Shown: positions 37,068-59,630 of the stretch, piece after piece
Layout of the letters: the number at the start of each line of letters is the position of its first letter
Position numbering within the stretch: the stretch's first letter is position 1
Virus record (IMG/VR): IMGVR_UViG_3300044732_003010
Location: 24,082 to 88,081 of that record
Length of the DNA stretch: 64,000 nt
Source of the DNA: a virus
Strand: one strand, 5' to 3'
Made by a program: the position numbers and the translations under genes
Notes under the pieces: generated by a model
Databases searched by the model: none
The model's input: the letters and a program-made list of their open reading frames with translations, nothing else
What the model was told of the DNA's origin: nothing

Positions 37068-37211
37068 TCAGTTATTAGTTATCAGTTGTCATCCGTCAAA
37101 AAGTGTGTGATTGCTTTATTAGCTTGATTTTCCGAGATTTTTGGCAGTCCTGCGATCAGTGTAACTATAGGTAAATCTACAAACTACAAAAAGATAATAA
37201 AAAAGTTTGAC

Positions 37212-37281
37212 AAAACACTTGACATACAAACATATACCTGTCATTATAGGTATATACCAAAAAACCAAAGGAGTTCACGAT
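37212..37281 (+). promoter_or_regulatory. Duplicated promoter/leader, copy 1
   Basis: TTGACA (37219-37224), 17-bp spacer, CATTAT (37242-37247). The -10 lies in the loop of ATATACCT/AGGTATAT. AAAGGAG follows. The whole 70 bp is repeated without change at 38286-38355. Confidence 0.7.
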
Positions 37282-37282
37282 T

Positions 37283-37747
37283 ATGACTACTGCTACCATC
37301 GACAAAATTGATTCTCAAGTCGCTGACATTCAAAATGAGATTGATTATCTCAAATCTCAAATTGAGATTTTCCAAGCCAAGCTATCTGATTTAGAAAATT
37401 TAAAAGCGCAAAAAGAAGCGCAAAAAGAAAGAGTTCAAAAGTTTGAAGACAAAACCTCAAAAGTATTGACAGAAGCAGAGTCCCTAAATGTAGAGATTCC
37501 TTCAAAAGAAGAATTTGAAAAAGTCTATGATATTCCTTATTATCAGGGCGGACTGACCGATCAAGAACGAAAAATCCTTTGGAAGCTTCCCTATCATTTG
37601 GAAGAGGTCATTGCTGAGGATCAATGTGTAACAAAATCTCGGTTATCTGGGATTAAAAGCAGTCTTTACAAAAAATTTGAATTGCAAGGTACACCTTGTC
37701 AAAAAACCATCGCACTTAAAGCTATGTCTGTTATGTATCTTAGCTAG
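37283..37747 (+). CDS. Coiled-coil protein
   Basis: 154 residues. Residues 5-70 are a heptad-rich coiled coil (DSQVADIQNEIDYLKSQIEI, AKLSDLENLKAQKEAQKERV). The second half (YYQGGLTDQERKILWKLPYH ... GIKSSLYKKFELQG) looks globular. No family is recognised. Expressed from the palindromic promoter at 37219. Confidence 0.45.
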   Translation: MTTATIDKIDSQVADIQNEIDYLKSQIEIFQAKLSDLENLKAQKEAQKERVQKFEDKTSKVLTEAESLNVEIPSKEEFEKVYDIPYYQGGLTDQERKILWKLPYHLEEVIAEDQCVTKSRLSGIKSSLYKKFELQGTPCQKTIALKAMSVMYLS

Positions 37748-38112: not shown

Positions 38113-38296
38113 ATGTCAATCACAGAAAATCTCTAAAAAAGGGTTCTCTGTGTCAGGAAAACAGAGATACCGATGCAAGGATTGCAATCATCATTTTACT
38201 GGTAATCCGGCAGGAAAACCCCCCCACACTGATTCAATGACTAACGCCGAAAGATGTCGTCGTTATCGGTTGAAAAAAAAACAAAAAAACACTTGA
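38093..38296 (+). CDS. Zinc-ribbon DNA-binding protein
   Basis: 67 residues: CPKCQSQKISKKGFSVSGKQ, YRCKDCNHHFTGNP is an InsA/IS1-type zinc ribbon (CxxC ... CxxC) with a basic tail (RCRRYRLKKKQKNT). It matches the C-terminal ribbon of the 30505 gene in type. Its stop codon falls inside the -35 of the next promoter (38293-38298). Confidence 0.55.
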   Translation: MTMQCPKCQSQKISKKGFSVSGKQRYRCKDCNHHFTGNPAGKPPHTDSMTNAERCRRYRLKKKQKNT

Positions 38297-38355
38297 CATA
38301 CAAACATATACCTGTCATTATAGGTATATACCAAAAAACCAAAGGAGTTCACGAT
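38286..38355 (+). promoter_or_regulatory. Duplicated promoter/leader, copy 2
   Basis: Seventy bases identical to 37212-37281, with TTGACA at 38293-38298 and the -10 in the palindrome loop. It drives the FGE-fold gene, which starts in its last bases. Confidence 0.7.
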
Positions 38356-38989
38356 GACCGAAAAACTACCCAATCAAGTCGCATTAGAAATGGTGAACTT
38401 ACCAGCAGGTGAGTTTCTCATAGGCTCTCCTGATAGTGATCCCGATGTTCAAAATCATCAAAAGCCTTCACACCAAGTTAAAGTCAACAGTTTTGCGATT
38501 GGCAAATATCCGGTGACTCAGGAACAATATCAAGCAGTAATGGGAACCAATCCCTCTCACTTTAAAAATAATCCCCAAAATCCGGTAGAACAGGTTAGTT
38601 GGGACGATGCTAGAGCTTTTTGTCAGAAATTGAGTCGAATAACCGGTAAAACCTATCGCCTACCCACAGAAGCGGAATGGGAATATGCTTGTCGAGCAGG
38701 TACAACTACTACATATTATTTTGGTGATGATGCTAATCAGTTAAGAGATTATGCTTGGTATAGCGAAAATTCTAATGACACAACTCATCCCGTAGGACAG
38801 AAAAAGCCCAATGGTTGGGGACTGTATGACATGAGTGGTAATGTTTGGGAGTGGTGCGAAGATAGTTGTCTGCGCGGCGGTTCTTGGTTCATCAATCCGA
38901 GGTACTGTCGCAGTGCGGTTCGTTTCTGGCTCTTCCCCGGCTTCCGCTTCAACTTCAGCCTCGGTTTTCGAGTTGTCTGCGACAATTAG
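38354..38989 (+). CDS. Formylglycine-generating-enzyme-fold protein, DGR target type
   Basis: 211 residues of the FGE-sulfatase (SUMF1-like) fold: FLIGSPDSD, FAIGKYPVTQEQYQAVMG, PVEQVSWDDARAFCQKLS, YRLPTEAEWEYACRAG, WGLYDMSGNVWEWCED, LRGGSWF, GFRVV. The C-terminus is the kind of C-type-lectin-like variable region diversified by cyanobacterial DGRs. About 25 residues normally found between WCED and LRGGSW are missing. With this fold in a phage a binding role is more likely than sulfatase activation. Its promoter is a 70-bp duplicate. Confidence 0.75.
   Translation: MTEKLPNQVALEMVNLPAGEFLIGSPDSDPDVQNHQKPSHQVKVNSFAIGKYPVTQEQYQAVMGTNPSHFKNNPQNPVEQVSWDDARAFCQKLSRITGKTYRLPTEAEWEYACRAGTTTTYYFGDDANQLRDYAWYSENSNDTTHPVGQKKPNGWGLYDMSGNVWEWCEDSCLRGGSWFINPRYCRSAVRFWLFPGFRFNFSLGFRVVCDN
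38888..38962 (+). other. DGR-type variable region within the FGE-fold gene
   Basis: Between GGSW and GFRVV, twelve codons are NNC (TTC, ATC, TAC, TTC, CTC, TTC, TTC, TTC, AAC, TTC, AGC, CTC), as expected if AAC codons in a template were mutated at adenines; TGG and GGC suit AGG and GAC. The stretch 38906-38974 has very few A compared with the A-rich surroundings. No template repeat or reverse transcriptase is visible in the window. Confidence 0.65.
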
Positions 38990-57531: not shown

Positions 57532-59235
57532 ATGAAAGAAGGTCGATCCATAAAAGCCATGCTAGTCAAGAAAACTATTGCGGACATAAAACTTAACCTT
57601 AATGCCACTCAGCGAACCTATATTGATCGCTGGATGGACGAGCTTAAAGCTGTCTGGAATTTTGGGCTAGAGCTACTGATGGAATATCAGCTTAATAAGT
57701 ATTACGACGAGCTTGAGAAAATAACAGGAAAACCAGTTAAACGGGTTAAACGTCGTTTAGCTAAAAAAACTCAATTTATTGACTCCCTAAAAAACGAAAA
57801 AGGTAAATCCCTTCCTAATCCCCTTTACACCCCTAAATATTTAACTGGCAAGCAAAAAGTTAAAATACAGATAGCTAGAGAAAAAAGACAAAAAGCAGGT
57901 TACTCTTATCCTGTCCATATCCCTATTCAACGGCGGTTAAAATCTGATAATTATTTTGGGTTATGTGGCTGTATTACAAAAGAAAAATGTCCAGAACTAT
58001 GCAAGGACATCCCTATGGCTTTTGTCCAAGGGGTTTTAAAAAAGCTTGCTGATTCCTGGAAAGCTTACACCAAACTCGATAAAAAGAATTTAGACAGAAA
58101 ACTTCCTAGATTTAAAAGAAAAGAAGATAAAATTAAATCTCTTTATTCTGAGATCAGCAATTGCGCTGTTAGAAAAGGGGATAAAATATCTATAGGTAGC
58201 TGTGGCAAAACATTAGGCGATTTAAAGATTGTCAACAATACTTTAGATATTCGGTGGGGTGACAGAAAAGCCTCTACCGTATCAATTATCAAATACCCAT
58301 CGGGATATTATCTAAGTCTATTTGGTGAATTTGAAGTAGATGATCTACCTGATTCCGATAAAGCGATCGGTATTGACGTAGGACTAGAATATATAATTAG
58401 TACCAGCGACGGCCAACAAATTGACCCGCCCAAATACTATAGAAAACAGCAAAAAAGACTAGCAAAACTGCAAAGAAAAACCGCTAGACAGTATAAAGCA
58501 GGGGAAAATAAAGACGGCAAAAATCTCGCTAAAACTCGTGCTAAAGTTGCCAAAACTCACGAAAAAATAGCAAGACAACGCAAAGGATTTAATCATGCCC
58601 TAAGTACCGATATTGCTAGAAATCATGGCGCTGTAGCCGTAGAAGACCTCAACTTAAAGAATTTAATGCGACGACCTAAACCGAAAAAAAGAGAAGACGG
58701 TAAAGGCTACGAACGCAATAACGCGAAAGCCAAAGGGGGATTAAATAAATCCTTTGCTGATGCTAGTTTAGGACAATTAACTGGTTTTCTTGAAACGAAA
58801 ATGAAAACTCCCAACCGAGAGTTTATCAAAGTTCAACCAGCCTATACTAGCCAAGATTGTCCTCGCTGTGGCAATCGTGTTAAAAAAAGTTTATCAACCC
58901 GCACCCATAAATGTTTAGAGTGTGGATGTACTTTACCCAGAGATGTGGCCGCCGCAATCAACATCTTAGGGAAAGCAGACTTCGTAAGAAGCTACCCGGC
59001 TTGTACCGGGGAAGTTAAGCCTCTGAAGGATTTCGATAAGGAATCAGCGCAGGAGGAATTACTTAGCAAGTCCAGCCGATTGTTACTCGGCGAAGAAACC
59101 CTCGAAACCTTACTGGTTTTGACCTCCGAGCCAGTGACACCCAAGAAAAAAACAAGGAAAAGGTCGATCCACTCGCAACCCGCGCAAACAGTCAACGCAG
59201 GCTATACGCAGCTTACACTCTGGGAGACTGGGTAA
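57532..59235 (+). CDS. TnpB-like/Cas12 (type V-U-like) RNA-guided nuclease
   Basis: 567 residues (or 558 from ATG 57559). RuvC-I GIDVGLEY with Asp282, RuvC-II VAVEDLNLKNL with Glu371, a four-Cys zinc finger (CPRCG at 443-447; CLECGC at 461-466) and RuvC-III PRDVAAAINIL with Asp471: all catalytic residues present. The N-terminal ~200 residues are basic and helical (guide-RNA and DNA binding). Its length is that of small type V-U effectors, several of which occur in cyanobacteria. A four-unit array starts on its stop codon; no transposase TnpA or IS end is visible. The CCCGG/CCGGG hairpin at about 58997-59010 recalls tnpB 3' ends overlapping omega RNA. Confidence 0.85.
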   Translation: MKEGRSIKAMLVKKTIADIKLNLNATQRTYIDRWMDELKAVWNFGLELLMEYQLNKYYDELEKITGKPVKRVKRRLAKKTQFIDSLKNEKGKSLPNPLYTPKYLTGKQKVKIQIAREKRQKAGYSYPVHIPIQRRLKSDNYFGLCGCITKEKCPELCKDIPMAFVQGVLKKLADSWKAYTKLDKKNLDRKLPRFKRKEDKIKSLYSEISNCAVRKGDKISIGSCGKTLGDLKIVNNTLDIRWGDRKASTVSIIKYPSGYYLSLFGEFEVDDLPDSDKAIGIDVGLEYIISTSDGQQIDPPKYYRKQQKRLAKLQRKTARQYKAGENKDGKNLAKTRAKVAKTHEKIARQRKGFNHALSTDIARNHGAVAVEDLNLKNLMRRPKPKKREDGKGYERNNAKAKGGLNKSFADASLGQLTGFLETKMKTPNREFIKVQPAYTSQDCPRCGNRVKKSLSTRTHKCLECGCTLPRDVAAAINILGKADFVRSYPACTGEVKPLKDFDKESAQEELLSKSSRLLLGEETLETLLVLTSEPVTPKKKTRKRSIHSQPAQTVNAGYTQLTLWETG

Positions 59236-59482
59236 CAATCGGCTTGACTTGTTAAGTAGATTGCAAGTTGCCAATTCAGATAGGGCGATAGGTCGTTGCC
59301 ACGTAACAATCGGCTTGACTTGTTAAGTAGATTGCAAGTCCCACTGAGAAGTGATTCAATGTCAATCGATTTCATAGTAACAATCGGCTTGACTTGTTAA
59401 GTAGATTGCAAGGAACCGCTAAAGTGTCGCTGTCAGTCGGTTTTAGGTAACAATCGGCTTGACTTGTTAAGTAGATTGCAAG
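59232..59482 (+). CRISPR. Four-repeat CRISPR array
   Basis: Four identical 36-nt repeats at 59232-59267, 59303-59338, 59377-59412 and 59447-59482, starting GTAACAATCGG and ending GATTGCAAG, with CAATC/GATTG and ACTT/AAGT pairing inside. Spacers: 59268-59302 (35), 59339-59376 (38), 59413-59446 (34). The first repeat contains the effector's TAA (59233-59235). No cas1/cas2 in the window. Confidence 0.88.
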
Positions 59483-59525
59483 TATGAACCAAGTGACACA
59501 GAACCCACTACAAAAGAACTTCAAG
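59483..59525 (+). CRISPR. Terminal spacer matching a nearby phage gene
   Basis: The 43 bases after the fourth repeat match 60308-60350 at 39 positions, differing at positions 4, 29, 40 and 42. Homology begins exactly at the repeat edge and ends before the degenerate repeat at 59526. The protospacer is in the coding strand of the small 60251 gene, and in both places it reads as the same protein segment (PSDTEPT.KEL). Confidence 0.75.
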
Positions 59526-59630
59526 CAATTAAGCTTAAGCCTTATTAGGGATTGAAACATCTACTCCTTTGTGGGATAAATCCCACCGGGCCACAGAAAC
59601 AATTAAGCTTAAGCCTTACTAAGATTAAAC
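59526..59630 (+). CRISPR. Pair of degenerate host-type CRISPR repeats
   Basis: CAATTAAGCTTAAGCC...TTATTAGGGATTGAAAC (59526-59558) and a shorter copy ending CTAAGATTAAAC (59600-59630) flank a 41-nt segment containing GTGGGAT/ATCCCAC. The first matches the widespread cyanobacterial repeat ending TATTAGGGATTGAAAC, unlike the 36-nt array upstream. It may be a remnant of a second mini-array or a copied single repeat. Confidence 0.6.

Follow-up and report, generated by a model that had tools for sequence, protein, structure and literature searches.

Diversity-generating retroelements (DGRs) of cyanobacteria, including plasmid-borne DGRs and variable proteins encoded far from their retroelement, were described by Vallota-Eastman et al. 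in 2020, according to whom no cyanobacterial DGR is definitively assignable to a prophage (PMC7517822). Dore et al. (2024) described trans-acting DGR targets of Thiohalocapsa PB-PSB1 that lie within one genome, and the C-type-lectin (CLec) targets of cellular clade-5 DGRs have been proposed to be invader sensors of MoxR/TIR conflict systems (PMC10907252). In Bordetella phage BPP-1, an initiation of mutagenic homing (IMH) sequence and homology to the template repeat (TR) can steer the machinery to a heterologous gene (PMC3240598). Action in trans within one genome (PMC10907252), and remote cyanobacterial targets as well as plasmid DGRs (PMC7517822), are thus already known. Here we analyze the gene for a DGR-type variable protein (Table 1) in a window of 64,000 nucleotides, bases 24082-88081 of the 88,081-bp virus record IMGVR_UViG_3300044732_003010. 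We find that this phage carries the target half of a DGR without the machinery, and that DGRs of the host or of plasmids probably act on its gene in trans.

The composition of the variable region (VR) of this gene resembles that of an adenine-mutagenized copy. In the VR core, 16 of the 25 codons are of the form NNC; among 11 other genes of the window the share is 14.9% (binomial p = 3e-8), and no stretch of 25 codons in them has more than 11 codons ending in C. The NNC excess reported in the initial annotation is therefore real, although its count of twelve was too low, and the A-poor stretch that it described between GGSW and GFRVV is borne out by an A content of 12% in the core versus 34% in the window. 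Among the host sequences sampled, the closest comes from the chromosome of Microcystis aeruginosa FD4, where a caspase-FGE gene has a VR with the same 5' and 3' flanks. The two VRs differ at 24 of 75 positions, distributed 13/11/0 over the three codon positions, and the chance of 24 differences with none at third positions would be about 1e-7 if they were distributed as in the gene bodies. Similarly, the VR of the syntenic phage L098 differs from that of the window at 13 positions, distributed 9/4/0.

Placing an A wherever the window, FD4 and L098 VRs disagree gives the implied template NNNPRNCRSANRNRNNPDNRININN. A real TR beside the reverse transcriptase (RT) of Planktothrix PCC 11201, which played no part in this inference, reads NNNPRNCRSANRNRNEPDSRNSNY. 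The difference between the window VR and the FD4 target without any third-position change thus implies an AAC-rich template like that of Planktothrix, and the unchanged third positions in both comparisons agree with the original proposal of adenine-directed mutagenesis of an AAC-rich template. The template of the window VR would be expected to match NNNPRNCRSANRNRNNPDNR and to be flanked by GGTTTTCGAGTTGTCTGC. The suggested search for a template ending in the same flank led to the host target just described and not to the TR itself. Locus L180/L181, considered as a candidate TR of the window VR, was rejected, being a coding caspase-FGE target that carries the same flanks.

Across the wider set of phages, 55 distinct VRs mismatch host TRs at 836 of 1586 template adenines and at 245 of 2475 other positions, totals for which the best-TR assignment was scored leniently at A and the choice of the best template favors low values. 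Since VRs of one class are related, p-values hold for single comparisons; key cases were realigned without gaps. Plasmid p1FD4 of M. aeruginosa FD4 carries the TR GGSWGNNPNNCRSAIRNNNNRRDNRNNNNGFRV beside an RT and Avd. Against this TR, the VR of phage L107 differs at 16 of 28 adenines and at 0 of 47 other positions (p 4e-9), that of L158 at 15 of 28 and 0 of 47, and that of MaMV-DC at 16 of 28 and 4 of 47; a gapped alignment of Ma-LMM01 gives 15 of 28 and 3 of 47. The near-zero mismatch of the ungapped cases outside adenines is independent of the choice of best template, and homologous phage VRs such as that of L107 differ from their template at adenines only. Other phage VRs are followed by 3' flanks that belong to different classes of host TR.

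At template AAC and AAT codons, phage VRs of the same class differ at rates of 0.674/0.506/0.057 at codon positions 1/2/3, versus 0.130/0.105/0.226 in the bodies of the same genes; this comparison was made within template classes, as an all-pairs version mixed classes and was uninformative. Third positions are thus the least variable in phage VRs (5.7%) and the most variable in the rest of the genes (22.6%). This bears directly on ordinary positive selection on a binding loop, with no retroelement involved, to which the VR residues are open because they lie in the ligand-binding part of the CLec fold. Frozen third positions indicate NNC copied from AAC, which loop selection would not yield. 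Almost frozen third positions beside saturated first and second positions, the reverse of the gene bodies, together with the match of non-A positions to templates in other genomes, refute this explanation, to which we assign next to no probability. In sum, these alignments show phage VRs to relate to host templates exactly as adenine-mutagenic reverse transcription would leave them. On either route into the phages, homing or recombination, the host DGR made the sequence.

No corresponding machinery was found in the phages. The absence of an RT or template from the 64 kb, as first reported, is correct and holds for the whole 88,081-bp record, which yields no RT (RVT_1 and a DGR-RT profile), no Avd (Avd family search) and no TR-type sequence. 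RVT_1 also detects no RT in 33 related viral records or in 8 sequenced Microcystis phage genomes (Ma-LMM01, MaMV-DC, MaMV-DH01, MaMV-CH01/02, MaMV-DL01/02 and Mic1), although host genomes gave hits in the same searches, and the option that the RT merely lies outside the window consequently fails for all of these phage records. A cyanobacterial DGR-RT profile and the Avd family match 4 of 4 Microcystis genomes versus 0 of 16 phage records. Around 79 viral relatives no template-like sequence was found up to a distance of 10 kb, zero-mismatch matches to a general TR pattern are confined to host genomes, and TRs were found only beside host RTs. The phage record, in other words, does not unite RT, Avd and TR in one genome as a complete DGR cassette does.

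The machinery is present in the presumptive host, the bloom-forming cyanobacterium Microcystis. An intact DGR RT with an AAC-rich TR and a matching local VR occurs in 4 of 12 Microcystis genomes, and DGRs are also found on plasmids of Microcystis, Anabaena and Fischerella. Relatives of the window gene are present in sequenced Microcystis phages, its CLec domain and the Microcystis DGR targets are members of one family, Microcystis genomes include target bodies that are 81-88% identical to phage ones, and the window repeat CAATTAAGCTTAAGCCTTATTAGGGATTGAAAC, which matches Microcystis CRISPR arrays, ties the virus to that host. With RT, Avd and TR in Microcystis and phage VRs that match the TRs at non-A positions, diversification in trans by a host DGR, as the initial annotation had proposed, is supported; the comparisons suggest a virus gene varied by its host's own machinery. 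Alternatively, the DGR could act from another mobile element, such as a co-infecting phage or a satellite with RT and TR. The plasmid DGRs indicate that mobile carriers exist, but when IMG/VR was scanned with the profile of cyanobacterial DGR RTs, it returned 11 loci with a best identity of 47%, and no exact TR-type match was found there, so that we consider this source very improbable.

We note several further features of the host elements. Plasmid p1FD4 (L216; 43.6 kb) encodes two avd genes, an RT, FGE-type targets, a MoxR ATPase and a TIR protein, and judging from this gene content is a putative plasmid-borne DGR-sensor conflict island. Truncated DGR RTs at G046:C1:4485049-4485714, G041:C15:17272-17550 and G038:C84:108754-108927 indicate that DGR decay is common in the genus. 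The sole RT of genome G034 was examined as well and is not of the DGR kind.

How the VR sequences reached the phages can be examined in pairs of related phages. L132 and L125 are identical at 590 of 608 upstream bases and at 52 of 75 VR positions; Ma-LMM01 and MaMV-DC share 561 of 606 upstream bases and 55 of 75 VR positions, with the next ~300 nt nearly unchanged. The replaced tracts do not extend past the edges of the VR: the 60 nt before it contain 0-1 differences in L132/L125 and L096/window. In both L132 and L139, a core that matches the G042 template with one non-A mismatch sits between FD4-class flanks on both sides, which is what a homing patch would leave.

The main rival explanation holds that host DGRs diversify host targets only, and that phages acquire VRs already diversified there, or entire CLec domains, through homologous recombination and pass them on to their descendants, without homing into phage DNA. 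Several observations agree with it or otherwise weigh against rewriting of the phage gene in place. The tree contains some six changes between host and phage labels, which together with the body identity given above indicate that phages do recombine with host genes; moreover, the class of the 3' flank often moves with the VR class, as in L104, whose body is 94% like that of the window but whose VR and flank are of the G040 class. VRs are also stable among the closest relatives: the window VR is unchanged in 8 contigs with a 100% identical protein, and five MaMV isolates have one VR in common. Variation between isolates had been set as the test of the initial proposal, and adenine-biased differences do separate related phages, whereas the 8 near-identical contigs share their VR; rewriting would therefore be occasional. 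A search of 12 Microcystis genomes, 388 order-level genomes, IMG/VR and plasmids did not yield the cognate TR of the window VR, and the best known TR has 10 of 41 non-A mismatches. Phage VRs are followed by 5-bp or AT-rich stems only, with no GC-rich hairpin of the BPP-1 kind within ~34 bp downstream, and none was found at the host VRs checked either. The homing event itself was not observed. Recombination alone, however, accounts poorly for tracts that stop at the VR edges and for the mosaic cores of L132 and L139, and every phage VR has at least about 14 of 75 differences from the sampled host VRs and TRs (17 host cores sampled). We regard it as unlikely.

For diversification in trans we propose the following sequence of events: (I) at infection, the host RT/Avd complex would copy host TR RNA with adenine errors, (II) the cDNA would then home into the phage VR via the conserved flanks, and (III) the binding face would in this way be rewritten in trans from time to time. 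With less confidence, the effector-less phage proteins may be decoys or dominant-negative sensors rather than tail adhesins, given that their host counterparts, which have conflict genes of the MoxR/TIR type as neighbors, are putative sensors of invaders; by this analogy a decoy role is plausible. The broader proposal that Microcystis phages parasitise the diversification of host anti-phage sensors, with effector-less sensor decoys rewritten in trans by a chromosomal or plasmid host RT during infection, is tentative and on balance doubtful. A neck-protein gene lies 0.5 kb downstream of the variable-protein gene, and a tail adhesin role as in BPP-1 is conceivable for the window protein; a promoter-like leader of its own, however, points to an accessory gene.

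The annotated open reading frame (ORF) and its coordinates are confirmed. The product matches Pfam FGE-sulfatase (7e-48), its best PDB match by sequence is the DGR target TvpA of Treponema denticola (2Y3C; E 7e-35), and an AlphaFold model with a pLDDT of 86 again retrieves 2Y3C as the top Foldseek match (E 7.5e-19). The protein thus adopts the C-type-lectin fold, and its VR lies towards the C terminus. Formylglycine-generating enzyme requires two catalytic copper-binding cysteines in its C-terminal region. The motif GGSWFINPRYC of the window protein holds a single cysteine, and C185 alone is nearly invariant in that region in an alignment of 39 sequences; a role as formylglycine-generating enzyme is therefore not plausible. 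The leader of the gene is one arm of a direct repeat (37199-37281 and 38273-38355), duplicated before one small neighboring ORF, and TTGACATACAAACATATACC occurs exactly twice in the window versus 0.02 expected.

Table 1. Features of the variable-protein gene and its leader, in window coordinates
Feature	Position	Strand	Description
Promoter-like leader of the gene, with ribosome-binding site	38273..38355	+	93% copy precedes ORF 37283-37747
Variable protein	38354..38989	+	211 aa; stand-alone FGE-sulfatase-family CLec domain; no effector domain
Constant 5' flank of VR	38870..38887	+	CTGCGCGGCGGTTCTTGG; same words beside host TRs and VRs
VR core	38888..38962	+	25 codons, FINPRYCRSAVRFWLFPGFRFNFSL, between GGSW and GFRV
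Constant 3' flank, IMH-like VR end	38963..38980	+	GGTTTTCGAGTTGTCTGC; identical in FD4 chromosomal caspase-FGE gene G046:C1

Among the phage relatives, the stand-alone CLec variable proteins of MaMV-DC (L213), Ma-LMM01 (L214) and Mic1 (L215) are annotated as (serine/threonine) kinases, and the matched region is the CLec/FGE domain. Some phages (L148, L150, L156, L160, L161, L210) carry 2-5 clustered CLec variable genes with different VRs. Elsewhere in the window, a 567-aa protein (57532-59235) scores above the NCBIfam cut-off for the type V CRISPR effector C2c8 and is directly followed by four 36-nt repeats, GTAACAATCGGCTTGACTTGTTAAGTAGATTGCAAG, at a spacing of 70-74 nt (59231-59483), a predicted phage-borne mini CRISPR array. 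Two copies of the different repeat CAATTAAGCTTAAGCCTTATTAGGGATTGAAAC lie at 59523-59621, and the CRISPR arrays matching it belong to many Microcystis genomes.

In the literature we found no description of a host DGR that serves targets carried by phages; subscription journals and preprints lay outside the search, and priority is not certain. Roux et al. (2021) state that their own method would not detect remote targets (PMC8144416), and since DGR surveys start from the RT, they overlook any target that has its RT in a different genome. If phages do use a host or plasmid hypermutator, a single system would be divided between host and virus; this would account for the diversified proteins of phages that lack an RT, Ma-LMM01 and MaMV-DC among them, and provide a testable route to what cyanobacterial DGR sensors recognise.

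Among the described systems, the cyanobacterial DGRs (PMC7517822) share with the present one CLec proteins, the GGSW...GFRV region and AAC-rich templates, as well as plasmid DGRs and targets distant from the RT in one genome; there, however, RT and target belong to the genome of one cell, whereas here the target is in an RT-less phage. Thiohalocapsa PB-PSB1 similarly has sensors linked to MoxR/TIR-type conflict systems, all in one bacterial genome, while the present system would extend across the phage-host boundary (PMC10907252). TvpA (2Y3C), the nearest solved structure by both sequence and fold, is a bacterial lipoprotein with its own cellular DGR, unlike the phage-borne window protein. Finally, phage BPP-1 (mtd/brt/avd; PMC3240598) likewise carries a target whose 3' VR is diversified on the basis of an A-rich template, but it encodes its own RT, Avd and TR, diversifies a tail protein and has a GC-rich hairpin after the VR that is absent here.
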